IMG/VR virus record: IMGVR_UViG_3300020198_001070 | Coordinates: 1-56,193 of that record | Direction: 5' to 3' (one strand) | From: a virus | DNA: 56,193 nt | In this document: positions 20,974-52,085 of the stretch, one piece after another | Numbering within the stretch: the stretch's first letter is position 1 | How the letters are laid out: the number at the start of each line of letters is the position of its first letter | Position numbers and translations under genes: made by a program | The notes under the pieces: model-generated | What the model saw: the letters and a program-made list of their open reading frames with translations, nothing else | Told to the model about the DNA's origin: nothing | Databases searched by the model: none

Positions 20974-23097
20974 ATGGATATGAATAAAATAACAGTAATC
21001 AAAAGAAATGGTTCTAAAGAACCATTAAATTTAGAAAAATGGCAACAACAGATTGCCAACGTTTGTTCAGGAATTGCAGATGTCAGTCAATCAATGATTG
21101 AAATCAAAAGTCAACCTCATTATTATGACGGCATTACTACTAAAGAAATCGATGAAATTACATTACGCGCTATCGTCGACTTAATCGATATAGAAGCAAA
21201 CCCAGATATAGGTCATACAAATTATCAATATGTAGCAGGTAAACAACGTTTATCAATGCTACGTAAAGATGTATACGGGCAATTTCAACCACTGCCATTA
21301 TATGAATTAGTTAAGAAAAATGTAGAAATTGGTCTTTATACACCAGAACTTTTAGAGTGGTACAATGAAGATGAATGGAATAAAATGGAGTTATTTATTG
21401 ACCATTCAAAAGATGAACAATATTCATACGCTGCCATTGAACAATTGATTGAAAAGTATCTTGTAAAAAATAGAGCAACTAAGGAAATTTTCGAAACTCC
21501 ACAAGTTCGTTACATGGTTGCTGCCGCAACAGTTTTTCATAAAGAAGAACCAAATTCGGCTAGGATGAAATATATCAAGGAATATTACAATGCTGCATCC
21601 GATGGCCTTTTTACTTTAGCCACCCCTGTACTTGCCGGTCTTGGTACGCCCACAAAACAATTTAGTAGTTGTGTTCTTATTCGCAGTGACGACGATCTTG
21701 ATAGTATTTTCGCCGCCGGTGAAATAATGGCGAAGTATGCTAGCAAACGTGCTGGCATAGGATTAGAAGTAGGTAGACTTCGTCCAGTAGGTTCACCTAT
21801 TAGAAATGGCGAAATCATGCATACCGGCTATATTCCTTTTCTTAAAAAATGGTATGGTGATTTAAGAAGTTGTTGTGTAACTCCTGAGACTTGGGTAGAG
21901 GTCATTGATGAGGGAGATTCCGATGAAATGGAAAAAACTAAAAAAATTCAAATTAAAGACCTAGCAGTAGGCATGAAGATTAAGACCAAAGACGAAACAG
22001 GTGAGATTGTTTTCAAAACAGTTACTAACAAATGGGACACAGTTGTCAAACAAGAAGACCAAGTTCGTTTGGAATTTGAGAATGGCGTGGTGTTAAACTG
22101 CTCGATAAATCACCCAATTATGTGTTTGGATGATGTCGGGTCAGTTGTCCAGAAGTTGCCAGATGCTCTAACACCTAAAGATCGTGTGTTAACTGAAGGC
22201 GGGTTTACACGGTTGCTAACTATTGATTTTGTTCAAGACAATGACGAAAACTACCTCGACATCACAGTAGAAAATACTCACACATTTTTTGCTTCTGGTT
22301 GTAAAGAAGGTCCAATGGTTCTGACTCATAATAGCCAGGGAGGTCTCAGAAATGCATCTGCTACAATTTTTTACCCAATCTGGCATTACCAATTTGATGA
22401 CCTTATTGTTCTTAAAAACAATCAAGGCACTGAAGAAACTAGAGTTCGTCATATGGACTACGGGGTCGTGTTATCAGCGTTCTTTTGGAGACGATGCAAA
22501 AACAAAGAAAACATAACATTCTTTGACCCAAACGAAGTTCCAGACTTATACGAAGCATTTTATCAAAATACATCTTTATTTGAAGAACTATATGTAAAAT
22601 ACGAAAAACGAAAAGACCTTCGTAAAAAAGTAATGAACGCAGAAGATGTATTCAAAGGTGGAATTTTAAAAGAACGCACTGATACCGGTAGAATTTACCT
22701 AGTGTTTATTGATAACGTAATGAACCAAGGACCATTTGATCCAGAATATCATACCATTTATCAATCTAATTTATGCTGTATAGCAGGTGATACAAAAGTA
22801 ACTTTCCAACATGAAAATGGAGGGGAAGAACAGATGTCTGTTTCGGATGCAGTTGAACGATTTAATTTAGGTGGATTATCTACTTCAAAAATTAAAAGTT
22901 TTAAGAATGGTGAAATTTCTTGGGAACATATTTCTGCAGCAATAGAAACAAAAACTGTTACAGAATTATATGAAATAGAAGACATATCTGGAAAAATTAT
23001 TAGATGTACAGGTGATCATTTAATTTATACAAAAAATCGAGGTTATGTTAGAGCAGATGAACTAATTGAAACCGACGTGTTATGTATAGAAAATTGA
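20974..23097 (+). CDS. nrdA: NrdA N-terminal part with one cis intein and an N-intein
   Basis: Class Ia ribonucleotide reductase large subunit, which reduces ribonucleotides to deoxyribonucleotides with NrdB. Residues 1-300 are the ATP-cone and catalytic barrel start (TKQFSSCVLIRSDDDLDS, GIGLEVGRLRPVGSPIRNG). Residues 301-453 are a mini-intein inserted between RSC and SQGGLRN. Residues 454-601 continue NrdA to YQSNLC. Residues 602-707 are the N-half of a split intein, after which the frame ends in TGA. The rest of NrdA is in the 23247 gene, so two splicing events, one in trans, are needed for the enzyme. Confidence 0.93.
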   Translation: MDMNKITVIKRNGSKEPLNLEKWQQQIANVCSGIADVSQSMIEIKSQPHYYDGITTKEIDEITLRAIVDLIDIEANPDIGHTNYQYVAGKQRLSMLRKDVYGQFQPLPLYELVKKNVEIGLYTPELLEWYNEDEWNKMELFIDHSKDEQYSYAAIEQLIEKYLVKNRATKEIFETPQVRYMVAAATVFHKEEPNSARMKYIKEYYNAASDGLFTLATPVLAGLGTPTKQFSSCVLIRSDDDLDSIFAAGEIMAKYASKRAGIGLEVGRLRPVGSPIRNGEIMHTGYIPFLKKWYGDLRSCCVTPETWVEVIDEGDSDEMEKTKKIQIKDLAVGMKIKTKDETGEIVFKTVTNKWDTVVKQEDQVRLEFENGVVLNCSINHPIMCLDDVGSVVQKLPDALTPKDRVLTEGGFTRLLTIDFVQDNDENYLDITVENTHTFFASGCKEGPMVLTHNSQGGLRNASATIFYPIWHYQFDDLIVLKNNQGTEETRVRHMDYGVVLSAFFWRRCKNKENITFFDPNEVPDLYEAFYQNTSLFEELYVKYEKRKDLRKKVMNAEDVFKGGILKERTDTGRIYLVFIDNVMNQGPFDPEYHTIYQSNLCCIAGDTKVTFQHENGGEEQMSVSDAVERFNLGGLSTSKIKSFKNGEISWEHISAAIETKTVTELYEIEDISGKIIRCTGDHLIYTKNRGYVRADELIETDVLCIEN
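21874..22332 (+). other. cis mini-intein in NrdA, 153 aa
   Basis: Starts with Cys (CVTPETWVEV), has a block B-like segment (NCSINHPIMC) and ends TFFASGCKEG...VLTHN before a Ser +1 residue: the HINT-domain layout. No homing endonuclease domain fits in 153 aa. It interrupts the conserved KSC/SQGG site of NrdA. Confidence 0.9.
22777..23094 (+). other. N-terminal half of a split intein (NrdA)
   Basis: Begins CIAGDTKVTF, includes the block B segment RCTGDHLIYT and ends GYVRADELIETD...N followed by TGA. It resembles the NrdA-2 group of naturally split inteins described from marine phage metagenomes. Confidence 0.88.
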
Positions 23098-23128
23098 TTA
23101 CCAACACAAATACATGTAGAGGTAAAAC

Positions 23129-23254
23129 ATGTATAAAGAACTTTATAAAATACTGATAGATAATGCGAAATTAGAAACCAGAATAAAAAATCAAGGAACA
23201 TATTATGAACAAAACCATGAGTTTGTTCAAGGAAGAATAAAAAATAATGATTAA
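23129..23254 (+). CDS. 41-aa relic between the intein halves
   Basis: ATG frame with ribosome site TAGAGG. The end, GTYYEQNHEFVQGRIKNND, resembles the first HNH element of phage homing endonucleases (TYYEKHHI...) but stops before the rest of the domain. Probably a truncated homing endonuclease; its stop overlaps the ATG of the C-intein gene. Confidence 0.5.
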   Translation: MYKELYKILIDNAKLETRIKNQGTYYEQNHEFVQGRIKNND

Positions 23255-23348
23255 AATTAGAAAAATAATAGTTGAAGCAACAAAAGTATATGATATAACT
23301 GTTCCAGAAACCGAGTGTTTTTTTGCAAATGATATGTTGGTTCACAAT
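23247..23348 (+). other. C-terminal half of the split intein, 34 aa
   Basis: MIKIRKIIVEATKVYDITVP followed by a segment ending FFANDMLVHN and then Cys +1. This matches the short C-inteins (about 35 aa) of naturally split phage inteins. Confidence 0.9.
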
Positions 23349-24332
23349 TGTGAAATTTTACTTCCTACTAAACCATTTAAACGATTGGATGATGAAAGTG
23401 GCAGAATATCACTCTGTACCCTTGGCAGTCTGAATTGGGGTTCGTTTAGAAACCCAGAAGATATGCGTAGAGCTTGTAGAATTCTACATAGAAGTTTAAA
23501 TAATATTCTTGATTACCAGGACTTCTTATCAATACAAAGTAAATTAAGTAATGATGAAATTAGACCAATCGGAATTGGTATTACTAATTTAGCATATTGG
23601 GCAGCTAAACGTGGGTTTAAATATGGTGAACCTGATATGTTGGCCGAAGTTAAAAGTTGGATGGAACATCAAGCATACTACTTAACTGAATCCAGTGTTG
23701 AATTAGCCGAAGAACGTGGTCCGTGTTTACATAGTGATAAAACCAGATATGGACAGGGTATATTCCCTTGGGAATTACGTGCAGCCGGTGTTAATGAATT
23801 AACAGATTTCACCCCCGAATTACCTTGGGAACCATTACGTGACAGAATAAAAGTAAGTGGTGTTCGCAATGCCACACAAATGGCTATTGCACCAGTTGAG
23901 AGTTCTAGCGTTGTAATAAATTCAACTAATGGAATTGAAATGCCAATGCAATTAATCCAAACTAAAGAATCTAAATCTGGGTCATTAACACAAGTAGTTC
24001 CAGAATACCACAAATTGAAAACCAAATATCAATTATTATGGGAACAAACTGATTGTATCGGATATTTAAAAACAGCTGCTGTTTTAGCTGCTTTTACCGA
24101 CCAATCAATCAGTACCAATACTTTTTACAATCCTGCACATTTCCCAGATAGAAAAGTGCCAACAACATTGATTGCTAAAAACTTAATGTTAGCTCACTAT
24201 TTTGGGCTAAAAACTCTGTACTATTCGCTCGTAAGCAAACAAGGTAGTAAAGTAGATGATGTTGTTGACTTACCAAGAGGTGTTGATATCAATGACGATG
24301 ATGAAGATGAATGTATTGCATGTAAATTATAA
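23247..24332 (+). CDS. nrdA: C-intein plus NrdA C-terminal part
   Basis: Residues 1-34 are the C-intein half; from Cys35 the protein resumes NrdA: CEILLPTKPFKRLDDESG, then the C-terminal barrel with ISLCTLGSLNWGS, GIGITNLAYWAAKRG and QMAIAPVESSSVVINSTNG, ending in an acidic tail with the redox pair CIAC. Trans-splicing to the 20974 product would rebuild a full NrdA of roughly 770 aa. No separate promoter is seen, so both halves probably come from one mRNA. Confidence 0.93.
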   Translation: MIKIRKIIVEATKVYDITVPETECFFANDMLVHNCEILLPTKPFKRLDDESGRISLCTLGSLNWGSFRNPEDMRRACRILHRSLNNILDYQDFLSIQSKLSNDEIRPIGIGITNLAYWAAKRGFKYGEPDMLAEVKSWMEHQAYYLTESSVELAEERGPCLHSDKTRYGQGIFPWELRAAGVNELTDFTPELPWEPLRDRIKVSGVRNATQMAIAPVESSSVVINSTNGIEMPMQLIQTKESKSGSLTQVVPEYHKLKTKYQLLWEQTDCIGYLKTAAVLAAFTDQSISTNTFYNPAHFPDRKVPTTLIAKNLMLAHYFGLKTLYYSLVSKQGSKVDDVVDLPRGVDINDDDEDECIACKL

Positions 24333-37578: not shown

Positions 37579-38115
37579 ATGAGTTTAAAAGAATATACCA
37601 AAGATTTACATACAGAAATAGAAAAAACACAGTTTGCAAAACTGTTGCTTTCTGGTAACATCACACCTGCACACTATACCAACTACTTATATCAACTGTT
37701 GCTGGTATATTACCCAATTGAATTTGGTGCAAAAATGGTAGGGGCGCTGGATAATTTACCTGGATTGGAAAGGTCTGCACTTATTCTTGCAGATTTTGGT
37801 GAATTATCAGATACGCAATATAACGGGAAGTGGTGTCCAGCAACAATCAAATATCATAATTACCTGATTGATCTCATCAATGATGTTGACCGTCGACCAT
37901 TGATTAAAGCGCATTTGTATGTTCGTCACATGGGTGATTTATTTGGTGGGCAATATATTGCCAAAAAAGTGCCAGGCAGTGGTAAAATGTATCAGTTTAC
38001 TGATATGGACTTGCTGAAAACCAATATCAGAAGTTTAGCAACTGATGAATTAGGTGATGAAGCAAGAATTGCATTTAAATGGTCCATCGATATTATGAAT
38101 GAATTATATGAGTAA
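37579..38115 (+). CDS. heme oxygenase (biliverdin-forming)
   Basis: 178 aa: proximal heme His11 in YTKDLHTEIEKT and distal helix RHMGDLFGGQYIAKKVPG (family consensus GDLSGGQ). It opens heme to biliverdin, CO and iron using electrons from ferredoxin. The stop overlaps the bilin reductase ATG, showing coupled translation and metabolic linkage. Compact size fits phage HO forms such as ho1 in marine viruses. Confidence 0.92.
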   Translation: MSLKEYTKDLHTEIEKTQFAKLLLSGNITPAHYTNYLYQLLLVYYPIEFGAKMVGALDNLPGLERSALILADFGELSDTQYNGKWCPATIKYHNYLIDLINDVDRRPLIKAHLYVRHMGDLFGGQYIAKKVPGSGKMYQFTDMDLLKTNIRSLATDELGDEARIAFKWSIDIMNELYE

Positions 38116-38794
38116 TGTGTGGGATACCTTAGCTAAAATTCAAGTTTATTTTGAATCCGCGTTAAACAATTATGGTACCGAAATCCAAGAACCAGGGCTA
38201 GATAAATTTAATCAACCAGCCTGGATTAATAAAGTATGGACCAGTGAAGTTTTTAGACGTGCACATTTATGTGTGGTTGATGCCAGAGAAACAAAAGGGG
38301 TGTGGATGATGCATTGCTGCATCTTTCCGCATATTCACAACCCAGCCCCTATATTCGGGTTTGATGTTGTTGCTGGAAAAAACAAAATAACAGGTTGCTT
38401 CGTTGATTATAGTCCAGCTGGTGACCCATACCATCCATTATTGGAATGGTTTGGACAGATTACGCATGATTTACTCTGGAAAAAAACGAGAGAATTACCG
38501 GAATGGGGCAAAAGAATTTTCAGTGAAAACATGGTTGCAGCAAGTAATGTACAAACCGATCTCGAACTACAACAAATTTACGATGTAGCGACTAATGGTA
38601 TAGAATACTATTTAGTGGATGTCGGTGATACCAATGATACAGCCGACGACACAGCAGAGTCACAAAACTTATATACATCAAATCAAAAACTTAACCCACA
38701 TACACCAAAAGTAATGACATCGCTAGGGTTGTTCGATGATGATGTCACTACTTTTATCAACGAATGTTTATTCCCATCAATAATTAAAGTATGA
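38108..38794 (+). CDS. ferredoxin-dependent bilin reductase (PcyX/PebS type)
   Basis: 228 aa. The segments MMHCCIFPHIHNPAPIFGFD, DVVAGKNKITGCFVDYSP and ELPEWGKRIFSENMV follow the FDBR family, with the catalytic Asp in GFDVVAG. Family members reduce biliverdin to phycobilins; phage forms PebS and PcyX make phycoerythrobilin in two steps. I place it nearer these than PcyA by size and context, but a tree is needed. ATG overlaps the HO stop. Confidence 0.85.
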   Translation: MSNVWDTLAKIQVYFESALNNYGTEIQEPGLDKFNQPAWINKVWTSEVFRRAHLCVVDARETKGVWMMHCCIFPHIHNPAPIFGFDVVAGKNKITGCFVDYSPAGDPYHPLLEWFGQITHDLLWKKTRELPEWGKRIFSENMVAASNVQTDLELQQIYDVATNGIEYYLVDVGDTNDTADDTAESQNLYTSNQKLNPHTPKVMTSLGLFDDDVTTFINECLFPSIIKV

Positions 38795-38846: not shown

Positions 38847-39335
38847 ATGAGTAAATTTGTAGGAATTTTAATGTTATTTGTAGCTACATCATTGTATGCT
38901 GCTGAATTACAACACACTTTCAATAGCCCAGCATTTAGTGGTATTGGGTATAGCAACCACGTTTTAACTTTACAGCAATTAGAAACTCAAGCAAGTGATA
39001 AAAATAAATCAGCTGCTGATGCGATAATTGCAAAAGCAGCATCAGAAGCGGCAAATACCCCATCTGCTAAATTCTTAGCAAATGTAGAATCTAGAATATA
39101 TTCACAACTTGCAAAACAATTAACTGATAGTCTTTTTTCAGAAGGTTCATCTTGCACAGTTGGTTCTGGAGTTTGTGGAGCAATACCAGATTTGGGTGGT
39201 AATAATGTCACTTGGCAAATGACTAATCAAGTAGTCAATGGCGTTATCCAACAAATGATTAAAATTGATATTACTAATAATTCATCTGGCCAATCGACTA
39301 GTATGTTAGTTCCAGCTGGAGCTTTTTACTTTTAA
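38847..39335 (+). CDS. csgF: CsgF curli accessory protein
   Basis: Signal peptide MSKFVGILMLFVATSLYA, then the CsgF N-terminal segment that plugs the CsgG pore (LQHTFNSPAFSGIGYSNHVL, compare the mature CsgF start with N-P-x-F-G-G), a helix, and a C-terminal beta part ending in VPAGAFYF. In bacteria CsgF sits in the CsgG channel at the cell surface and templates curlin nucleation. 162 aa. Confidence 0.85.
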   Translation: MSKFVGILMLFVATSLYAAELQHTFNSPAFSGIGYSNHVLTLQQLETQASDKNKSAADAIIAKAASEAANTPSAKFLANVESRIYSQLAKQLTDSLFSEGSSCTVGSGVCGAIPDLGGNNVTWQMTNQVVNGVIQQMIKIDITNNSSGQSTSMLVPAGAFYF

Positions 39336-39344
39336 CGGCGCATT

Positions 39345-40169
39345 ATGAAAAAATTATTAATAGTAACAACAATTATCTTTTTACAGGGATGCGCTACAGG
39401 AAGTTCAATTCACAAACTCATAACCGGTGAACAGTTTGATGATCCAGTTGTTGAACAATCTAAATTTTTACAAAAAGAAGAAAACTGGTTGGCACCTCCA
39501 GTTGGTGGACCTATTCCAATTGCAGTGTATGGGTTTCAAGACAAAACTGGTCAACGTAAATCAATACCAAATATCGCAAGCCTTAGTTCTGCAGTGACAC
39601 AAGGAGCTGAAAACTATTTAATAAAATCATTAAAAGATGTCGGTGATGGTAGATGGTTCATTCCAGTTGAGCGTGTTTCATTGGAGAATCTAATAAAAGA
39701 ACGACAAATGATTAGACAAGCACGAGAATTTTTCCAAGGTAAAGATGCACAACCATTACCAGCAATGACGTTTGCTGGTGTGATGGCCGAAGGTGCGATT
39801 GTTGGTTATGATAGTAATACAACAACGGGTGGTGCTGGTGTAAGATTTTTTGGTATTGGTGGAGAAACACAATACCAAAGCGATACAGTAACAGTAAGTT
39901 TAAGAATTATATCAATCACATCTGGTGAAATATTAACTTCTGTTATTGTTACTAAAACCGTATTAAGCTACATGGACAAATTAGGTGTATTACGTTTTAT
40001 CGCATCTGATGCAAAAGCGATTGAAGCTGAAGTAGGTGGTAGTATAAACGAAAGTATTAATAGAGCAACTAATAAAGCAATTCAAGCTGCTGTTATTGAT
40101 ACAATCAAAGATGGAGCAAAGAAAGGACATTGGGCATTTAAAGATATACCAAATCCTTATATAAAATAA
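39345..40169 (+). CDS. csgG: CsgG curli secretion channel lipoprotein
   Basis: Lipobox LQGCATG near residue 16, then CsgG motifs: VYGFQDKTGQRKSIPN, AENYLIKSLKDVGDGRWFIP, VERVSLENLIKERQMIRQ, TFAGVMAEGAIVGYDSN and VSLRIISITSGEILTSV. CsgG forms a nonameric outer-membrane pore that exports curlins. 274 aa fits the family. 9 nt after csgF, so one operon. Phage copies are known from some marine phages; the benefit is unsettled. Confidence 0.93.
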   Translation: MKKLLIVTTIIFLQGCATGSSIHKLITGEQFDDPVVEQSKFLQKEENWLAPPVGGPIPIAVYGFQDKTGQRKSIPNIASLSSAVTQGAENYLIKSLKDVGDGRWFIPVERVSLENLIKERQMIRQAREFFQGKDAQPLPAMTFAGVMAEGAIVGYDSNTTTGGAGVRFFGIGGETQYQSDTVTVSLRIISITSGEILTSVIVTKTVLSYMDKLGVLRFIASDAKAIEAEVGGSINESINRATNKAIQAAVIDTIKDGAKKGHWAFKDIPNPYIK

Positions 40170-40207
40170 AGGAGCGTGGTTAAGGCAACTTAACTAATGT
40201 AAATATT

Positions 40208-40996
40208 ATGAAACGAACAACCATAAGTTTAGTAGTAACATCGTTATTTGTTAGCCAAGTTGCATTAGCAACTAATACAGGACAAAATAACGTATATATA
40301 GAACAAGTTGGCAATGCTAATACTATCACGATTGACCAAATAGGTGGAACTAACAATGTAGGTGGAGTAACTACTACAACATTAACATATGGAAATGATA
40401 ATGTTATATCTGCATTCACCCCAACAGCGGCTAGTGCACTAAATTATGCAACTATAACAGGAAGTTCTAATATTGTTACTTTGAGTCATACTGGTGACAA
40501 CAACTGGGCACAGTACAATATCAACGGTGGAACTAATACCTATTCAAGTACAATTATTGGCAGTAGTAATAAAACAAAATTAACTATTGGAACTTCTGGC
40601 CAGAATGGTGCTAAAAGTGATAACATTATTACTGAAATAATTAATGGTGATTTAAACTATTTGATTCAAACACTAACAAAAGGAAGCATTAATAGTTATA
40701 ATGAAATGATAGGTAATAGCAATCAAATTACCACTCGTTTAACTAGCACATCAGGTGATGTTCATACAACGGTTACAGGAAGTAATAACTCATTGATAAA
40801 TGAACAAGATGATGGTGGAACAGGTCATCAATTAACACAGGAAATAACTGGTGGTTATAACTCTATTGTTACACAACAACAAGGAACAAATGATTCAGTT
40901 ATTAATATTAGCACATTAGGTGACCATAATAGTATTACTGTGCGTTCTACAAATTCATCTAGTATTGTTAATTCAAATATAGCTGTATCTAGATAA
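40208..40996 (+). CDS. curlin-like (CsgA/CsgB-type) repeat protein
   Basis: Signal peptide MKRTTISLVVTSLFVSQVALA, then imperfect curlin repeats with the S/N-x5-Q/N-x-G-x-x-N-x5-Q pattern, best seen at NVYIEQVGNANTITIDQIG. Later repeats are degenerate but Asn/Gly/Thr-rich. Probably the amyloid subunit or nucleator secreted by the CsgG/CsgF pore encoded upstream. 262 aa, longer than E. coli CsgA. Confidence 0.82.
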   Translation: MKRTTISLVVTSLFVSQVALATNTGQNNVYIEQVGNANTITIDQIGGTNNVGGVTTTTLTYGNDNVISAFTPTAASALNYATITGSSNIVTLSHTGDNNWAQYNINGGTNTYSSTIIGSSNKTKLTIGTSGQNGAKSDNIITEIINGDLNYLIQTLTKGSINSYNEMIGNSNQITTRLTSTSGDVHTTVTGSNNSLINEQDDGGTGHQLTQEITGGYNSIVTQQQGTNDSVINISTLGDHNSITVRSTNSSSIVNSNIAVSR

Positions 40997-40997
40997 A

Positions 40998-42083
40998 ATG
41001 TTGTGGATATTACTTTTTTTATTACCTTTAACTTCCTATGCAGATATAGGTTCTGTGTCAGAAGTTAATGGTTCTGATTGTAATATAGAACGAAATAAAC
41101 AAAAATTATCTGGTATTAAAGGTTCTTCTATTGAATCAATGGATATCTATATAACAGGTGGTTGTGTTAGTAACATTACATTTAAAGATGATACAAAAGT
41201 TAAAATTAACGAAAATAGTAGACTACTGATTGATGATTTTGTATTTGATCCAAAACAAAGTGATGCTGGTAAATTAGCATTAAAGGTCGGTATGGGAACA
41301 GTAAGATATGCATCAGGTCAAATAGCAAAAGCAAATCCACAACAAGTGGGTATAAAAACCCCAACTGCTGCAATTGCTGTTCGTGGCACAGATTTCACTA
41401 TGACAGTTGACGAAGCTGGTCAAAGCTTAGTTATGTTGATCCCTAGCTGCAAAGATGAAGCCGACGTAAAACAATATGAATTACAAGAAAATATATGCAA
41501 AGTTGGTAAAATAGAAGTTGAAAATTCAGCTGGAAAAGTTGTGTTAGATAAAGCATTTGAAGCAACATACGTCCAAAGTGAAACAACGATGCCTAGTCCA
41601 CCAACAATTGTCAATACGGTTGAATCAAAAATTAATAATTCATTAATTCTTGCTAAACCAATTGAAGTGCAACGTGCAGTAAAGGAAGCTAATAAATCTC
41701 CAAAAGATAAAGAAATGGAGGAATTAGAAGCTGAAGCTGGAAGACGTTTAAGTGCACAAGTTAAGCAATCCCAAGATGAAATTGACCAAGCTCGTGTCAT
41801 AAGATTAATGGAGCTTGCTGGATTACTTGGATGTAATGCAATATCCAGTGTTTGTGTTTCATGGGATAAACCAGATGCTGAAATGCAATTAAAAGGAAAA
41901 GGAATAGCATTTAGATTTTCACCTGATAAGCATTATGCAGAAATTAAAACACAAGGATTTGATTCAAATACTAGCATATCCGTAATTCAAGATGATATTC
42001 CAGCATCAACAATTATAGGTTCAGGTGATCCAGGTGGTAATATTGTTAATATTAAACAAAATAGTGGTGTATTAAAAAAATGA
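40998..42083 (+). CDS. secreted FecR-domain protein, 361 aa
   Basis: Signal peptide (MLWILLFLLPLTSYA), then a FecR domain: SVSEVNGSDCNIERNKQKL, KINENSRLLIDDFVF and QVGIKTPTAAIAVRGTDFTM. The C-terminal half contains a helical region and paired Cys. FecR domains also occur in surface and adhesin systems; here it sits between two curlin-like genes, 1 nt after the first and overlapping the second, so it is part of the same export cluster. Confidence 0.78.
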   Translation: MLWILLFLLPLTSYADIGSVSEVNGSDCNIERNKQKLSGIKGSSIESMDIYITGGCVSNITFKDDTKVKINENSRLLIDDFVFDPKQSDAGKLALKVGMGTVRYASGQIAKANPQQVGIKTPTAAIAVRGTDFTMTVDEAGQSLVMLIPSCKDEADVKQYELQENICKVGKIEVENSAGKVVLDKAFEATYVQSETTMPSPPTIVNTVESKINNSLILAKPIEVQRAVKEANKSPKDKEMEELEAEAGRRLSAQVKQSQDEIDQARVIRLMELAGLLGCNAISSVCVSWDKPDAEMQLKGKGIAFRFSPDKHYAEIKTQGFDSNTSISVIQDDIPASTIIGSGDPGGNIVNIKQNSGVLKK

Positions 42084-43192
42084 TTAAATTAATAGTGTTA
42101 TTTCTAATGTCATTTTCAGTATTTGCTACTTCATTTACTGATATTAAATTTGGACAATCACAAATAGCTGATAGTCAGTGGAACGTAAGTGCTTGTATGT
42201 ATACATCCACATGTCAAATTTATAGTAAAGCACCAGGAACTGCATATAAAATACCGTGGACATCTGGTAGACTTAGCTGGGCAACTGGAGATTATGTTGC
42301 ATTCGTTGCAACAGGAAATACAGCAAACCCTTGGCAAGCAATACAATATAATAGTAGTGGCGTTCAAAAAGCAGTTATGGGAAATGGTCATATTATTAAT
42401 ATGGGCACCAATTACTTATTTTTTGTTGGATACGATAATAACACTGGTCAATTATTTTCACCAACAACAGGAATGAATAGTTCTGCAGGGGTAACTTGGA
42501 CTGGAACATTAAATCCATCAGTTTCACAACTTAATACTGCTGCATCTAGTTGGACAACAGCACCGTTGTCACCTGGACAAACATATACAGCTGTTTCTAG
42601 TTTATGTTGTGGTGGAAGTAGTTCATCATTTACAGCAAATACCACTAATACATCAAAAGTTAATACATTCATCACCAGAACATCTGGTGATGATAAAGTC
42701 ACAGTAGAACAAATTGGATCCACTAATAGTATTATTATAGACCAATCTGGTACACCCAATAATTACACAAAATATTATAGTAATGGTGATTATAATTCAA
42801 CTACTATTTCACAATCTTCGTCTAGTACATCTGCCACGAATTATACTGAACTTTCCTTGGTTGGTAGCAATAATAATATTTCATTAACACAACAAAGTTC
42901 TGGTGGTATAAAAAGTGCATTTGTTGATATTGCTAATAACAATAATTCAGTTACATTATTACAAAAAGATAATGGGAATCATTATGCTGATATCACATTA
43001 TCGGGTGGAAATAAAACAGTTGATGTATCACAACAGGGATCTGGAAGTCACCAAGCTAGTGTAACATTATCTGGTCAGCCTTCTTCATTGAATTTGATTC
43101 AGCGCGGAAGTTCTACACAATTTTATTCAATAAATTTCAATTGTGCAACATCAGGTGGGTGTGTCGCAATTCAAGTTCAACAAGGTCAATAA
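42080..43192 (+). CDS. second curlin-like secreted protein, 370 aa
   Basis: Signal peptide MIKLIVLFLMSFSVFA, a Ser/Thr/Trp-rich N-terminal region of about 190 residues with a CC pair, then curlin-type repeats (DKVTVEQIGSTNSIIIDQSG; NNNSVTLLQKDNGNHYADIT; KTVDVSQQGSGSHQASVTLS). The fusion of a unique N-domain with curlin repeats suggests an adhesin-tipped fibre or nucleator. ATG overlaps the FecR stop. Confidence 0.78.
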   Translation: MIKLIVLFLMSFSVFATSFTDIKFGQSQIADSQWNVSACMYTSTCQIYSKAPGTAYKIPWTSGRLSWATGDYVAFVATGNTANPWQAIQYNSSGVQKAVMGNGHIINMGTNYLFFVGYDNNTGQLFSPTTGMNSSAGVTWTGTLNPSVSQLNTAASSWTTAPLSPGQTYTAVSSLCCGGSSSSFTANTTNTSKVNTFITRTSGDDKVTVEQIGSTNSIIIDQSGTPNNYTKYYSNGDYNSTTISQSSSSTSATNYTELSLVGSNNNISLTQQSSGGIKSAFVDIANNNNSVTLLQKDNGNHYADITLSGGNKTVDVSQQGSGSHQASVTLSGQPSSLNLIQRGSSTQFYSINFNCATSGGCVAIQVQQGQ

Positions 43193-43194
43193 TA

Positions 43195-43202
43195 GATAAA
43201 TA
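43195..43202 (+). promoter_or_regulatory. T4-type late promoter (GATAAATA)
   Basis: One mismatch to TATAAATA, 29 nt before the PqqA-like ATG. It could express the peptide separately from the curli operon. Confidence 0.45.
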
Positions 43203-43231
43203 CAATGCTAGACAACTTATAGGAGAATACT

Positions 43232-43306
43232 ATGATTTGGGGGATACCTACGTACAACGATATTAGATTGGGATTTGAAGTCACCTGTTATATCAGTAAT
43301 CGTTAG
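43232..43306 (+). CDS. pqqA: PqqA-like PQQ precursor peptide, 24 aa
   Basis: A 24-codon gene with a perfect ribosome site (AGGAG, 6 nt before ATG). It begins MIWGIPTYND and its core RLGFEVTCYISNR matches cellular PqqA (Klebsiella core RLGLEVTLYISNR), keeping the Glu and Tyr, here E16 and Y20 in FEVTCY, that PqqE cross-links to form pyrroloquinoline quinone. No pqqB, C, D or E lie in the window; a RimK-type ATP-grasp ligase gene begins 41 nt downstream. The peptide might feed a host PQQ pathway or be a RiPP precursor for a new product. Ends TAG. Confidence 0.8.
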   Translation: MIWGIPTYNDIRLGFEVTCYISNR

Positions 43307-43347
43307 TTAAATGGTGCATTACTAGCACGTTTAACTATAAGGTTATT

Positions 43348-44220
43348 ATGACAGTCTTAATATTGACTAAACAAAAAGATTCAGATTATGAAACTACAAA
43401 ACTTTTAAACAGTTTTATTGAAAAAAATATTTCCGTCAAAATTTGTTATTTTAATAGATTTGATATTGTGATAAATCATGGTATTTTTTATGATGGTGAA
43501 CGGATAGATAACCCAAAAATAGTACTTGTGAGACTTGGTGCTGGCATTACTCGAGCAGAATTATCAGTGATACGTTTTTTTGAATTGATACAGATTCCGT
43601 GTTATAATACAAGTGATAGTATAAATCTAGTTCAAGATAAATTCCAAACAAGTGAAATATTGGCAGCAGTGAACATCGCTGTTCCACATACGATGGTTGT
43701 TAAAACGCCAGTTAGAAATAATATAGTAAAAGATACTATTGGATTTCCGTGCGTCCTTAAAGTAAATGTTGGTAGTTTTGGAGAAGGCGTATATTTGTGC
43801 CATTCTGAACAAGAGTTTTTGAATTTAATCGAATTCGTTGATGCAATACACAATGAAAAAACATTAATTGCTCAAGAATATTTAAGTGATAAACCAGGAA
43901 TGGATTTACGTGTATTCGTAGTTGGTGACAAAGTTATCGGTGCAATGAAAAGAATTGCCCCTAAAGGTGACTTTCGTGCTAATATAACACATGGTGGAAC
44001 TGGTGAAGAATTTAAAGTTTCAAAAGAAATAGAAGAAATTGCTCTTAAAACAGCAAAAGTTTTAGGTTTAACTATTGCAGGAATAGATCTACTATTTGAT
44101 GCCCGTGGGTTTAGGGTTTGTGAAGCAAATTCAAATCCAGGGTTTATTGGGTTTGACAAATATTGCAATACTGACATAGCAAATGAAATAACATCATTTA
44201 TTATTAGTAAAATTCAATGA
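43348..44220 (+). CDS. RimK-like ATP-grasp ligase
   Basis: 290 aa: pre-ATP-grasp domain, then FPCVLKVNVGSFGEGVYLC (ATP-binding Lys and Gly-rich loop), AQEYLSDKPGMDLRVFVVGD, and metal site GIDLLFDARGFRVCEANSNPGF. This is the RimK/GshB ATP-grasp group that forms amide bonds, such as Glu addition to ribosomal protein S6, or peptide cross-links in graspetides. It lies between the PqqA-like peptide and the cyclase; modifying the peptide is a natural hypothesis. A 41-nt gap precedes it and only 1 nt separates it from the cyclase. Confidence 0.82.
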   Translation: MTVLILTKQKDSDYETTKLLNSFIEKNISVKICYFNRFDIVINHGIFYDGERIDNPKIVLVRLGAGITRAELSVIRFFELIQIPCYNTSDSINLVQDKFQTSEILAAVNIAVPHTMVVKTPVRNNIVKDTIGFPCVLKVNVGSFGEGVYLCHSEQEFLNLIEFVDAIHNEKTLIAQEYLSDKPGMDLRVFVVGDKVIGAMKRIAPKGDFRANITHGGTGEEFKVSKEIEEIALKTAKVLGLTIAGIDLLFDARGFRVCEANSNPGFIGFDKYCNTDIANEITSFIISKIQ

Positions 44221-44221
44221 C

Positions 44222-46267
44222 ATGATTAAAAAAATAATTGTAAGTCCTTGGACGGCATTGTTAACATTATTGCTGGTTATCAGTGTTCGAATATCAGACC
44301 CTGTGTTTGTCGAAAGCATTAGGTTACGGTATTTTGATACGTTAATCACATCCAAACCTACCACAGAAAATAACATATTTACAGTTAATATTGATGAAGA
44401 ATCTATCAACCAATATGGACAATGGCCATTTAAACGTGATATATATGCAAACATAATACAAAATTTATACCAACATAATGCTGGATTAGTAGTATTTAAT
44501 GTATTAATGCCAGAAATAGACAGGCAGGGTGGTGATAACGTATTACAAGATGTATTATCATCATACCCAGTTATTCTACCAAATATACCATCTGATATTT
44601 CCAAAAATACCCCAAAAATACCGGGTTCAGCAGTATTAAATCCAGAATACTTAGATAGAGTTATACAATACCCAGGAATTATTGCAAATATTCCATCATT
44701 AGAAGATATTGCAGCCGGGGTCGGTACTGTTAATACATTACCGGAAATAGATGGTGTTAATCGACGGATACCATTGATAGTAACAGTCAACGACAAATTA
44801 TACCCAGCACTTAGTTTAGAAACATTACGTGTTGCGGCAGGTGATACGACATTTCAAGTAAAATTGAGTGAATTAGGTGTTGAAAAAATGCGTATACCCG
44901 CATTTGGTCCTATAACAACAGATAATTTAGGTAGAATATGGATAGATTGGAGTCAATCAGCGACCAGTATAAGTCTTTCCAATATTCCAAATGATTTGGG
45001 TGGGGCAATTGTGATAGTTGGTCCAACAGCTGCTGGAATAGGCAATCCTATACCAACAGCGAAAGGGGCAATTTTTCCACACGAAACACAAGCATCAGTA
45101 ATTGGTACTATGTTGAATAACGTAGTTATTCAACGACCTGATTACGCAGATGGTATGGAAATACTAAGTGTGTTACTAGCGGGGATGTTATTACTTGCAT
45201 TGACAAGATGGATTTATATTGGGTTACTATCAATTGTTATAGTATCTGTTGGTGCAGTTTTGGGTAGCAGGTATGTATTTTCACAGTATCTATACCTTAT
45301 CGATGTGACTTTTTTTATTAGTAGTATTGTGTTAACATCATTGCATGCATATGGTGTTAAATTTTTAAGTGAATTCTTCCAAAAACAGCAAATCAAAAAA
45401 CAATTCGGTTCATATGTAAGTCCGGTAATTGTTGAACGTTTACAAAAAAATCCTAATCTTATTAAATTGGGCGGCGAAGAAAAAATGCTGTCAGCAGTAA
45501 TGACAGATATGCGGAACTTCACGGGGTTAGGTGAAAAATATGGGTCTGATGTAGAAGGGTTTACTTCTATTATGAATGAATACATGACTACAATCAGTGT
45601 CCCGGTATTTGCAAATGATGGATGTTTAATTAAATTCATTGGTGATGCGTCTTTACATATTCATGGTGCACCATTAGATGATTCACGACACGCATACCAC
45701 GCGGTAAAAACTGCGATTGAAATGATTCAAGCAGTTGATGATTTTAATAAGCATTTGCATTCAATTGGAAAACCACCAGTTGGCATGGGGGCTGGTGTAA
45801 ATACTGGTAAAATTCTAGTAGGTAATATTGGCAGTTCTGGCAAAATGGGGTATGATGTATTAGGTGACCCAGTATCAGTAGCTAGTCGATTAGAAGGGCA
45901 AACAAAAAGTTATGGTGTATTATTATTAATTGGTCCAGATACATTTAATGATGTAAAAAATGATTTTCATTGCTTTGAACTAGATTGCATTGCTCTTAAA
46001 GGAAAATCTATTGGATTACATATCTATACACCATTGTTCAATAATGACAACTTTAACCAACCGGATGCAGAACGACATGCTTATATGATTGAAGCATACC
46101 GTGCGCAAGATTTTGACACTGCCGAAATAATGACGCGTAGTTTATTTGGTTGTTTTGGTGGTGAATTAGACCATTACTATGAATTATGGCTGGACAGAAT
46201 CAATATTATGAAAGAATTATCATTACCATCTGATTGGGATGGAATTTATCGAGCTACATCAAAATAA
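44222..46267 (+). CDS. CHASE2-domain adenylate cyclase, 681 aa
   Basis: TM helix at the N-terminus, periplasmic CHASE2 domain (residues about 35-300; FTVNIDEESINQYGQWPF, GVNRRIPLIVTVN), three TM helices to about 380, then a class III cyclase domain. Metal Asp residues lie in VMTDMRNFT and IGDAS; purine-selecting Lys (LIKFIGD) and Asp545 (GYDVLG) indicate ATP. The transition-state Asn is Ser552 (GDPVSVASR) while Arg556 is kept, so activity may be reduced or altered. Would make cAMP in response to an envelope signal. Follows the RimK-like gene with a 1-nt gap. Confidence 0.9.
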   Translation: MIKKIIVSPWTALLTLLLVISVRISDPVFVESIRLRYFDTLITSKPTTENNIFTVNIDEESINQYGQWPFKRDIYANIIQNLYQHNAGLVVFNVLMPEIDRQGGDNVLQDVLSSYPVILPNIPSDISKNTPKIPGSAVLNPEYLDRVIQYPGIIANIPSLEDIAAGVGTVNTLPEIDGVNRRIPLIVTVNDKLYPALSLETLRVAAGDTTFQVKLSELGVEKMRIPAFGPITTDNLGRIWIDWSQSATSISLSNIPNDLGGAIVIVGPTAAGIGNPIPTAKGAIFPHETQASVIGTMLNNVVIQRPDYADGMEILSVLLAGMLLLALTRWIYIGLLSIVIVSVGAVLGSRYVFSQYLYLIDVTFFISSIVLTSLHAYGVKFLSEFFQKQQIKKQFGSYVSPVIVERLQKNPNLIKLGGEEKMLSAVMTDMRNFTGLGEKYGSDVEGFTSIMNEYMTTISVPVFANDGCLIKFIGDASLHIHGAPLDDSRHAYHAVKTAIEMIQAVDDFNKHLHSIGKPPVGMGAGVNTGKILVGNIGSSGKMGYDVLGDPVSVASRLEGQTKSYGVLLLIGPDTFNDVKNDFHCFELDCIALKGKSIGLHIYTPLFNNDNFNQPDAERHAYMIEAYRAQDFDTAEIMTRSLFGCFGGELDHYYELWLDRINIMKELSLPSDWDGIYRATSK

Positions 46268-46513: not shown

Positions 46514-47332
46514 CTAGGCAAGTTCTTGAAGTTTGTCTTTGTACGAATCCAATTCTTGATATACCGATTTTAAAAATCTTCTATACGATTTTTCATATCC
46601 TGGTTCTGTTCGCCCACGCATCTTACTGTAATCATGCGTAGAACGGGATGCAATATTCTTTAAAAATATATTAATTCCTTGCAATTGTTCATCGGTTGGG
46701 AGTTTATATATTTTATTGATAAGTTCTACAGCGGCTTGTTGACCATATGCGGCAATTTCATCAGGTTGGGATTTGTAAATTTCACGAGCTTTAATTTCTT
46801 CATCGGTGGTAGCAAACTTGTCCTGAACCAATGCAGTAAAAAATTTCACTTTCTCCCGTTCTATATACCCATGTTTATATTCATACCGCTGACCTTGCTG
46901 CACCTGAAGTGCATGTGTTAACTCATGTAGAAAAATCATAGCCATTTTGTTAACAATAGCGGTTAACGCATTTTCAAAATCAGTATCACCGCTAAGTTGA
47001 TTGATTTTTATCGTTATTAGATTTGCTATCAATTTCGTTGTCATATTAATGGTGTTATTTTCTTCCAAATATGACCCAGTACCTTGTTTTAAATTCACAA
47101 ATCTAATATTAATGTCATTATTATAAGTAGTTTTAACAAATGCGGTCAACCCGGTTTTAATAGCAGAAGTAAATAAATTATTATATTTTGCTAAAAATTC
47201 AACCACCATAGGTTTTGGTAAGGTATCTTTTTTATTAAAAATCGGGGTAATTGCATCTAAAATTATAGAATTTACTTCTGGGGTTTTTTGGGATACCGAT
47301 ATTCGTTCACACAAACATTCTCGTATTCTCAT
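46514..47332 (-). CDS. putative zinc metalloprotease, 272 aa
   Basis: Central motif IFLHELTHALQVQQGQRYEY is a HExxH zincin signature, with DEIAAYGQQAAVELI downstream offering a third ligand Glu. N-terminus starts MRIRECLCERI, like T4-like phage leaders; no signal peptide. Similar in design to the smaller HELVH protein at 12875. Substrate unknown; could be packaged or act on host proteins. Confidence 0.68.
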   Translation of the reverse strand: MRIRECLCERISVSQKTPEVNSIILDAITPIFNKKDTLPKPMVVEFLAKYNNLFTSAIKTGLTAFVKTTYNNDINIRFVNLKQGTGSYLEENNTINMTTKLIANLITIKINQLSGDTDFENALTAIVNKMAMIFLHELTHALQVQQGQRYEYKHGYIEREKVKFFTALVQDKFATTDEEIKAREIYKSQPDEIAAYGQQAAVELINKIYKLPTDEQLQGINIFLKNIASRSTHDYSKMRGRTEPGYEKSYRRFLKSVYQELDSYKDKLQELA

Positions 47333-47347
47333 ACAATCACCATATTC

Positions 47348-48121
47348 TTAATAATCACTATTTTTCACCCAATTTGTCAAATTTTCCTGATACCTGTCGA
47401 TAGAGTGGTTAACAAAAAAATTAATATTTCCTTTTTTAATTCCGGTAAAAAATCCCCTAACTCTATCTTTAACAATTTGCCATGATGTCATCTGTCTGAC
47501 TTGCCCATAATGATTCATATAATGTAATTCACCATGATGTTTATATCGACCAATTGGGTTACGTGTTACGATATCAGCATTATTAACCCATCTATGGTGA
47601 GTTAACTCAATTCCGTACATTAACCCAACATAAGCACCATTACCAACCCGTGGGCTACCATACGTAAATAATGCCACTGGATTTGGCATGTCATATAACC
47701 GTTTACACCGGGTTGCAATTAATGTTGCCATTGCTGCACCTAAACTATGACCAGTTAAATATATGTCCTTATGCTTCCCATATTGTTTTAACTTGTTAGA
47801 AATATCACCCCAAATGTTATCAACACTTTGCTTGAATCCTTTATGAACTTTACCGAATCCGGAACTACTGGTGACTAACATAACTCTTAAATCTGCAATT
47901 ATATCAGAAAATTGAGTTGGTTGGGTGCCTCTACATACCACAACAACGTCATCATCATTAAATAGACAATACGCGTCACTTCCATTGACACTATAAAATT
48001 CTGAGTTAAACCCCAATTCTTTAAATAATGGGCCTGCAGTAGTCGGTGACTGATATGATATATTACTAAGTTTAGCAAATAATAAACTTTGCTCTTGAAA
48101 TGATAAATTCTTGATACACAT
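47348..48121 (-). CDS. class 3 lipase (alpha/beta hydrolase)
   Basis: Nucleophile elbow YLTGHSLGAAMATLIATR (GxSxG), with oxyanion region VVVCRGTQPTQFSD, catalytic Asp likely in RWVNNADIVTRNP and His in HGELHYMNHYGQ. 257 aa; class 3 lipase pattern (FTYGSPRVGN). Good ribosome site (AAGGAA). No signal peptide, so it might act inside the cell on host membrane lipids or during lysis. Confidence 0.85.
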   Translation of the reverse strand: MCIKNLSFQEQSLLFAKLSNISYQSPTTAGPLFKELGFNSEFYSVNGSDAYCLFNDDDVVVVCRGTQPTQFSDIIADLRVMLVTSSSGFGKVHKGFKQSVDNIWGDISNKLKQYGKHKDIYLTGHSLGAAMATLIATRCKRLYDMPNPVALFTYGSPRVGNGAYVGLMYGIELTHHRWVNNADIVTRNPIGRYKHHGELHYMNHYGQVRQMTSWQIVKDRVRGFFTGIKKGNINFFVNHSIDRYQENLTNWVKNSDY

Positions 48122-50368: not shown

Positions 50369-50518
50369 ATTAAACAGCGCATATGGAAGACATTGGTACA
50401 ATAATGGAGTAAAAAAATTATTATCTATATCCATCAGATAATAAAATCGCTGAAATGAATTTAGAAAAACGTAGACTCCATTTGAATGGATGATATGGGT
50501 TTGTGAGAATTCGTTGAA

Positions 50519-50790
50519 GGTATTGTAATAGTCTTGGCGGACTCGGCTATCGTTATGCCGACATCTCCACCCCCCATCAAAAGTGTACTTAAATCTGAAA
50601 AAGATGACGTTTGGGGATAGTACACTTTTGATGGGGATGTAAGGATTCGACGTTGAGATGAAGGAATACTGGAGAATCATCAGATAAGATGTAAAAATTA
50701 AATAAAGTAAATGCAAAAGCAAATACAAAATTTGAATTCTACACTGTAGATGGCATCTTTGATGCCATTGCTGCCTAGTAAGTAGCAAGT
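50519..50790 (+). ncRNA. ssrA: circularly permuted (two-piece) tmRNA
   Basis: The acceptor piece comes first: T-arm TCGGC/GCCGA (50543-50561) and 3' acceptor strand CATCTCC (50562-50568) with ACC. A spacer with an 18-bp precursor stem follows (50572-50636). The coding piece then starts GGGGATG (50633), pairing fully with CATCTCC, and has the tmRNA hallmark GGATTCGACG (50643-50652). P2 forms between CGTTGAGA and TCTTGGCG plus AATACT/GGTATT. The tag frame (50713-50775) encodes AKANTKFEFYTVDG... ending DAIAA, then TAG TAA inside a hairpin (TTGCT/AGCAA). It rescues stalled ribosomes. Exact ends uncertain. Confidence 0.8.
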
Positions 50791-50853
50791 TCCGGGGGTA
50801 GTGCCTTGTTATCAAATAACTAGTGGGGAGAAATCCCCACTTCATTTGCACCA
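50785..50853 (+). tRNA. tRNA-like element, possible pseudo-tRNA
   Basis: GCAAGTT pairs with CATTTGC (6 of 7) before ACCA; an arm GTGGG-GAGAAAT-CCCAC sits in the T-arm place but lacks the TTC loop; a CAA-anticodon-like loop lies in GTT-ATCAAAT-AAC. The D-arm is poor. It overlaps the tmRNA end, so it may be part of that RNA or a decayed tRNA. Confidence 0.3.
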
Positions 50854-50859
50854 ATAATT

Positions 50860-50936
50860 GCGCTAGTAACCCATATGGCAAGGGTGACTGCCTCTAAAAC
50901 AGTATATAGCAGGTTCAAGTCCTGTCTAGCGCACCA
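50860..50936 (+). tRNA. tRNA with CTA anticodon (amber suppressor)
   Basis: 77 nt: acceptor GCGCTAG/CTAGCGC with ACCA, D-stem ACCC/GGGT, anticodon loop CTCTAAA giving CTA, which reads UAG, T-arm GCAGG-TTCAAGT-CCTGT. The anticodon stem has one C-A mismatch at its top. All other arms are intact, so it is likely expressed. It could insert an amino acid at UAG codons; which one cannot be told here. Confidence 0.82.
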
Positions 50937-50956
50937 TTCGATTATAGTACATATTC

Positions 50957-50985
50957 TTGACATAAAAAAATAATTGGAGTATAAT
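50957..50985 (+). promoter_or_regulatory. consensus sigma70 promoter
   Basis: TTGACA, 17-nt spacer, TATAAT: perfect. No ORF follows for 500 nt, so it drives a non-coding RNA. Confidence 0.85.
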
Positions 50986-50991
50986 ACACAA

Positions 50992-51386
50992 TATTAGGCT
51001 CCATTATAGGCAACATAGGCAACCCCACTTCAGATAATACTTGCACTGGTAAGATGAATAAGTGCCCCGAGATACGGAATGTGCTTCGCGTAGAGGGAAA
51101 CAATTGTGCTGAAGCAATGACTCATTTGACTACCCACACCTCGTGTTGTGGATGATGATCGGATATGCCTTCATACAACCGATTTCGAATGTTTGAATAA
51201 TATTAAAAAAGGCTAAAGAAGGGAGAAAAACCCTACGGACATATATGCGCTGGTATGTATATATGCACCCGCCGTCAGAAAAAATACAGCACTTCGAGGT
51301 ACCGGCTGACCGCCTCTGTAATAGTGTAATACCAGTGTGAAGTCAACTCAGTTGAAAAAATCATTTGCCCCCTTGCGGGGCAAAAT
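50992..51386 (+). ncRNA. unidentified structured RNA of about 400 nt
   Basis: Starts after the consensus promoter, has no sizeable ORF, and contains several helices, e.g. GGGAGAAAAACCC, ATCGG...CCGAT, CGTCAG...CTGACCG, and a strong final hairpin TTTGCCCC/GGGGCAAA at 51364-51386 with no T run. It lacks the signature sequences of RNase P RNA, 4.5S or a second tmRNA. Large phage RNAs such as GOLLD and ROOL also lie by tRNA clusters, but I see no basis for naming this one. Confidence 0.55.
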
Positions 51387-51494: not shown

Positions 51495-52085
51495 ATGAAA
51501 ATTAATGAATTATCTGGATATAAAAATAATGATCTTTATACTAAAGCAAAAGAAATATTTACTGGTAATAAAGATCAGGATGTATCATTTCGTGAATGGA
51601 AAAACATAATGGATTATTATGGGTTCACACATCTTGGTTCTGGTTCATATGGATCTGCCTATGAACACCCCAGTTATCCTTGGGTGTTTAAGATATTTAA
51701 AGGTGATAAGTCATATTTAAAATATTTTAACTATGTTAAAAAAAATCAACATAACCCACATATTCCGAGAATAAAAGGTTCTTATATACGACTAGGCAAT
51801 GATGCTTATATTGTACGATTGGAAAAATTACAAAAAATATCAATGGATCAATATGAAAAAGTAGAGTATATAATTGATGTTTTTTCAAGTATGTTAGACA
51901 ACGATTCATCTAGTACTGAGATAACTCCAATGCAAGCACAATTGATTGACTCGTATCATGGGATATACGAGATTCTGGTAGCAATCAAATATATGTTTGG
52001 TGAATCCTATACAGACATTCATTATGATAATATCATGATGCGTGGTAATGTTCCTGTAATAATAGACCCCGTGGTAGACCAATGA
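51495..52085 (+). CDS. protein-kinase-like phage protein, 196 aa
   Basis: Gly-rich loop FTHLGSGSYGSAYEHP, Lys in WVFKIFKGD, and a C-terminal catalytic-loop and metal pair TDIHYDNIMMRGNVPVIIDP, as in the kinase/aminoglycoside-phosphotransferase fold. It is shorter than full kinases (no C-lobe beyond the DP motif). N-terminus MKINELSGYK is the common T4-like leader. Targets unknown; similar proteins occur in T4-like marine phages. Confidence 0.7.
   Translation: MKINELSGYKNNDLYTKAKEIFTGNKDQDVSFREWKNIMDYYGFTHLGSGSYGSAYEHPSYPWVFKIFKGDKSYLKYFNYVKKNQHNPHIPRIKGSYIRLGNDAYIVRLEKLQKISMDQYEKVEYIIDVFSSMLDNDSSSTEITPMQAQLIDSYHGIYEILVAIKYMFGESYTDIHYDNIMMRGNVPVIIDPVVDQ

Follow-up and report, generated by a model that had tools for sequence, protein, structure and literature searches.

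The closest described systems are curli cassettes of phages. Wittmers et al. 2022 (PMC9599517) described such a cassette in phages, a T8SS module that includes FecR and an adenylate cyclase, and phage curli genes are also discussed in PMC7029224 and in PMC9004378, which proposes a lysis role for the phage CsgGF pore. We found no discussion of the cyclase active site in the accessible text of these papers, and a literature search returned no paper on an Asn-to-Ser change in phage cyclases. The Methylophilales phage Melnitz and the Pelagibacter phage HTVC008M both carry csgF, csgG, curlin repeats, FecR and a CHASE2 cyclase in this order. The podovirus version of the cassette has a histidine kinase ahead of csgF. 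Regarding the chemistry, the transition-state Asn is typical of class III cyclases but does not define them: Ma1120 of Mycobacterium avium has Lys101, Asp157, Ala164 and Arg168 at the four positions and works as an adenylyl cyclase without this Asn, its A164N change drastically lowers activity, and its Lys and Asp are described as the ATP-selecting pair (PMC4215837).

We analysed a 56,193-nucleotide stretch of viral DNA (the window) that contains a curli cassette at 38847-46267, where csgF, csgG, a curlin repeat, FecR and a cyclase are adjacent and in order. The order is that of Melnitz and HTVC008M. The genes of the cassette are the following:

38847..39335, + strand, CsgF, curli assembly factor (Pfam CsgF, 1.3e-7)
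39345..40169, + strand, CsgG, outer-membrane curli secretion pore (Pfam CsgG, 4.2e-47)
40208..40996, + strand, curlin-repeat-like protein 1 (Pfam Curlin_rpt, 0.0036, weak and below the cut-off)
40998..42083, + strand, FecR-domain protein with a signal-peptide-like start (Pfam FecR, 1.2e-9)
42080..43192, + strand, curlin-repeat protein 2, candidate secreted fibre (Pfam Curlin_rpt, 1.7e-4, 21.9 bits against a cut-off of 20.7)
43348..44220, + strand, RimK-like ATP-grasp ligase (Pfam RimK, 1.4e-46)
44222..46267, + strand, CHASE2-class III cyclase of the S-type catalytic subfamily described below (ORF, Pfam, AlphaFold2 and PDB match)

The first curlin-repeat-like protein is placed as the annotated curlin genes of Melnitz and HTVC008M are. 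The cyclase is the last gene of this same-strand run, in which genes are separated by gaps of 1 to 155 bp or overlap slightly. The inserted rimK, absent from the cassettes of Melnitz and HTVC008M, ends one base ahead of the cyclase start codon. Among the 89 viral loci in which the sequence left of the cyclase extends for 6 kb or more, rimK is present in 6, while FecR and CsgG are each found near the cyclase in 79. A megablast search of the region against phage records gave no match, and promoter and terminator scans yielded about as many matches as shuffled sequence.

The cassette is headed by a phage bilin-making pair, a heme oxygenase (PF01126) and a ferredoxin-dependent bilin reductase (PF05996), which occupies 37579-38794 on the strand of csgF and immediately precedes that gene. 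Convergent after the cyclase, on the minus strand at 46514-48121, are a putative metallopeptidase (DUF4344, below the cut-off) and a class 3 lipase. Further away, a permuted tmRNA (RF04321), a tRNA with a CTA anticodon (tRNA-Pyl according to ARAGORN) and a Polynucleobacter-1 RNA (RF01718) lie in a row at 50508-51194, which hints at a freshwater betaproteobacterial host; one related locus, L007, likewise has a tmRNA and a Polynucleobacter-1 RNA. The product of 51495-52085 resembles phrog_15752, a protein kinase with which phages inhibit the transcription of their host. The large subunit of ribonucleotide reductase is seemingly split at 20974-24332 into two ORFs (20974-23097 and 23247-24332), and an extra helicase-like similarity where the first one ends hints at an inserted element.

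A full-length CHASE2 cyclase had been proposed at 44222-46267 in the original prediction, and the ORF, Pfam, the AlphaFold2 model and the structural match all agree with it. The ORF is intact on the plus strand, starts with ATG and encodes 681 amino acids that make up a complete CHASE2-class III cyclase with the following parts:

44264..45187, + strand, CHASE2 sensor domain, residues 15-322 (stretch matched by Pfam PF05226)
45470..46036, + strand, class III cyclase catalytic domain, residues 417-605, S-type (Pfam, linked substitutions and structure)
46037..46264, + strand, C-terminal helical tail, residues 606-681 (alignments A1 and A3, helices in the model)

The CHASE2 match (PF05226, 2.1e-39, 136.1 bits against a cut-off of 26.3) precedes membrane helices and the Guanylate_cyc match (PF00211, 8.7e-14, 52 bits against a cut-off of 21.9), the arrangement of a CHASE2 sensor cyclase. 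The AlphaFold2 model has a mean pLDDT of 92.4, with helices at residues 9-25 before the sensor and at 309-327, 331-356 and 362-395 after it. From this layout the CHASE2 domain is expected to be periplasmic. In alignments A1 and A3 the tail terminates in a conserved motif, WDG-x-x-x-AT-[ST]-K. Structure comparison is informative for the cyclase domain only, since the match list is filled by that domain. The domain has a class III nucleotidyl cyclase fold: P. aeruginosa CyaB (3r5g) matches it with Z 24.0 and an rmsd of 1.7 over 190 residues, and Spirulina CyaC (1wc1) with Z 22.6.

Nine active-site positions were located from the codons of the reading frame:

45506-45508, + strand, D429, metal binding
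45632-45634, + strand, K471, base selection
45644-45646, + strand, D475, metal binding
45656-45658, + strand, H479
45662-45664, + strand, H481
45854-45856, + strand, D545, base selection
45875-45877, + strand, S552, at the transition-state Asn position
45887-45889, + strand, R556, catalytic Arg
45998-46000, + strand, K593, phosphate-binding Lys

Both metal-binding Asp residues are present and invariant in our alignments, and the base-selecting pair, the catalytic Arg and the phosphate-binding Lys are all there. The residues previously reported as kept (D429, D475, K471, D545 and R556) are thus correct in numbering and identity. Aligned with 3r5g, Ser552 takes the place of the conserved Asn and Asp545 that of a Thr, which confirms the earlier observation that a serine stands where the transition-state Asn is usual. 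The class III domains of CyaB, with Thr and Asn at 545 and 552, and of CyaC are both without the S-type set of residues. By published residues, not by sequence, the window enzyme is comparable to Ma1120, which has the Lys and Asp for base selection, retains the Arg and lacks the transition-state Asn, with Ala where the window has Ser (PMC4215837). Ma1120 is a published parallel for an active cyclase devoid of this Asn.

To place Ser552 among its relatives, we looked for homologues in other phages. A single scan with the cyclase protein found 68 viral relatives, and when the window and the two cultured phages are included position 552 is Ser in 50 cases and Asn in 20. The two cultured phages differ: the cyclase of Melnitz (40 % identity to the window) is of the same Asp545/Ser552 type, while that of HTVC008M (33 % identity) is of the Asn type. 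A second scan with the CHASE2 part only found Ser552 in 45 of 75 readable phage loci, all 45 with Asp545, and Asn552 in the other 30, with Thr545 in 29 and Ser545 in 1; the two scans share contigs, so that their counts are not additive. D429, K471, D475, R556 and K593 are invariant in all 74 fully readable loci chosen by sensor. Locus L007, where the cyclase gene is interrupted, is the only case seen with Asp545 and Asn552, and it keeps the ordinary GDAIMAWWGAP motif. The proposal that such enzymes are rare in phages does not hold in view of these numbers and of the published genes. The cyclase is neither rare nor isolated, given the frequency of FecR and CsgG beside it and the published cassette. 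It had also been allowed that serine might be common among close active homologues, which would make the change unremarkable; serine indeed predominates in the phage family, and the activity of these homologues is a prediction.

The serine at 552 belongs to a set of eight linked substitutions, which marks out a monophyletic catalytic subfamily within the phage cyclases. An alignment of 133 full-length proteins, 63 with the serine (S-type) and 70 with the asparagine (N-type), shows that G437, P461, I470, S477, H479, H481, D545 and S552 are fixed or nearly fixed in the S-type rows and absent or rare in the N-type rows. Position 470 immediately precedes the base-selecting Lys471; the strand that follows the metal-binding Asp475 carries 477, 479 and 481; the second base-selecting residue is at 545, and 552 is the transition-state position. 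D429, K471, D475, R556 and K593 are invariant across the 63 S-type rows. Taken together, Ser552 with S477, H479 and H481 would be the mark of an active site that was re-tuned rather than lost, and the odd serine looks like the normal state of a phage-evolved cyclase, a conserved working variant and no broken copy.

One explanation for the missing Asn, raised in the original prediction, is a low-activity or inhibitory form that titrates host signalling, in other words a weak or dead cyclase that would serve as a decoy for host cyclases or as their dominant-negative partner. The residue replaced is one that helps to stabilise the transition state, and this Asn is essential in mammalian adenylyl cyclase (Yan et al. 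1997, as cited in PMC4215837), which counts against an active enzyme. However, if the domain were dead, nothing would keep its metal, base-selecting, Arg and Lys residues in place, and these are invariant. The median pairwise dN/dS of the catalytic domain in S-type pairs is 0.07, a value that is approximate because dS is high and near saturation but that indicates strong purifying selection; the sensor diverges faster than the catalytic domain. Furthermore, the serine is the majority state and comes locked with seven co-substitutions fixed across 63 diverse rows, bacteria keep the S-type domain beside a cNMP-binding protein (see below) and a natural Lys/Asp/Ala/Arg enzyme is active (Ma1120, PMC4215837). 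The inhibitory form is thus unsupported and we regard it as very improbable; the evidence points instead to a competent cyclase.

The S-type domain has one origin, inside the phage cyclases. On a tree of catalytic domains, the phage cyclases are placed among alphaproteobacterial CHASE2 cyclases, the S-type sequences form a single clade (100/100) within the phage cyclases (99/99) on a long branch of 1.05 changes per column, and the S-type sequences from bacteria of the SAR116 order are nested in the phage S-type clade (98/99). A CHASE2 tree, made for comparison by a quick method without bootstrap, requires 11 changes of the viral S-type label (10 of them forced by supported branches) compared to 2 on the catalytic tree, and it places the SAR116 sensors outside the phage clade. 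By segment, SAR116 locus L072 and phage locus L057 are 10-27 % identical in the sensor and 69-78 % in the catalytic domain, with the join near residue 420: here one phage S-type catalytic domain is joined to a bacterial sensor. The trees and this comparison show that S-type and N-type catalytic domains were exchanged many times under related sensors.

Two cyclase genes are interrupted by an ORF. At L182 (6890-7827) the inserted ORF lies between the CHASE2 and catalytic domains and has a NUMOD3 motif, which is typical of homing endonucleases. At L007 (9749-10607) the ORF lies inside the catalytic domain and has no Pfam identification. No group I intron reached the Rfam gathering thresholds at either insertion. 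It is conceivable that these elements could be drivers of domain exchange.

The eight linked changes could alternatively mark a change of substrate or product, the S-type being active on other chemistry such as formation of cGMP or a cyclic pyrimidine nucleotide, or having a shifted metal or pH preference. The changes do cluster at 545, at 470, on the strand with 477, 479 and 481 and at the transition-state position, and the S-type branch is long. Nevertheless, Lys with Asp is the ATP-specifying pair in Ma1120 (PMC4215837), and S-type and N-type domains replace one another under sensors of one kind within the same cassette, which argues for a shared product and probably for the same job. We therefore consider this alternative unlikely and ATP the most likely substrate.

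Bacterial relatives differ at the active site. Among the matches listed, they have Asn552 with Thr, Ser, Ala or Gly545, two SAR116 loci excepted. The alphaproteobacterial CHASE2 cyclases of Bradyrhizobium and relatives share the domain order and C-terminal tail of the window protein, with a FecR-domain neighbour in many loci, but the listed ones carry Asn552 with Ser or Thr545 and the motif GDAIMAFWNAP where the S-type has GDAS-x-HIH-x-AP. As a single query against genome contigs the window protein found no relative, whereas alignment A2 as a query gave matches. With only a few candidates scored per genome, 3 of 136 genomes from the SAR116 order had the S-type; among 385 sampled genomes of the class of L072 it was exclusive to SAR116, and none of 369 sampled genomes of the class of another locus, L128, had it. 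Beyond phages it is thus confined to three SAR116 genomes among those sampled, with a clear score gap. This distribution, with the nesting in the tree, suggests that some marine bacteria took over the phage-evolved S-type later. We considered that L072 might be a phage contig in a single-cell genome and rejected this, as the surroundings of both L072 and L245 are ordinary bacterial genes and the order of the operon is the same in the two.

In these two genomes the order is a repeat protein, a C39-type ABC exporter, a cNMP-binding/HlyD fusion, the S-type cyclase and FecR. The cyclase of this type I secretion operon has the same S-type catalytic domain as the window (63 % identity) under an unrelated-looking sensor sequence. 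The fusion (L072, 3462-5819; L245, 8584-11121) has an N-terminal cNMP-binding domain joined to an HlyD-type adaptor and adjoins the cyclase; a literature search found no paper on such a fusion. It is possible that a cyclic nucleotide directly gates SAR116 type I secretion through it. FecR clusters with CHASE2 cyclases are also known from Campylobacterota (PMC9239204), and in Bradyrhizobium sp. CSA112 the FecR-domain neighbour of an N-type CHASE2 cyclase is a giant secreted protein of 1646 amino acids with RTX-type motifs (L075, 1676-6613). Large FecR proteins like this one recur in related loci. What links these cases is the pairing of a CHASE2 cyclase with FecR at a locus for surface secretion.

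We think it likely that the window cyclase is active, converting ATP to cAMP under the control of the envelope or the fibre cassette. As judged from sequence, a true cAMP source sensing the envelope appears to be the better of the two functions originally suggested. Gene neighbourhood is our guide to the signal and to the role of FecR: the periplasmic CHASE2 domain, probably with FecR, would sense how the envelope or the secreted curlin-like fibre is faring, the cytoplasmic cyclase homodimer would then produce cAMP and a host cNMP-binding protein would act on it. The receptor is probably the host's, because a search for cNMP-binding proteins or domains found none in 23 phage records including the window; virus records may be incomplete.

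Alternatively, instead of reporting on the envelope to host regulators, the active cyclase may control the phage cassette itself, acting for example on CsgGF pore opening, on the export of the fibre or on the timing of lysis. The tight linkage with csgF, csgG and FecR fits this, as does the lysis role proposed for the pore in PMC9004378, and the SAR116 fusion of a cNMP-binding domain with a secretion adaptor makes direct cyclic-nucleotide control of a secretion machine plausible. Against it, the 23 phage records provide no phage-encoded reader, and we consider this alternative the less likely one. Our preferred reading is still cAMP production acting through a host receptor.

The phage cyclase and its cassette were already known; what is new is the S-type subfamily, together with its repeated exchange and its occurrence in SAR116. 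A bolder and rather doubtful scenario is that of a distinct phage-evolved catalytic subfamily with altered chemistry or product, subsequently captured by bacteria and wired to cNMP-gated secretion. If true, it would represent the transfer of a second-messenger enzyme from virus to bacterium. Phage pairs with a shared sensor and differing catalytic type are natural material for testing the replacement of the transition-state Asn, and the SAR116 operon supplies a candidate receptor for the product of the cyclase. Phage curli cassettes are widespread in water, and the presence of a strongly selected cyclase suggests that their purpose involves a second messenger.
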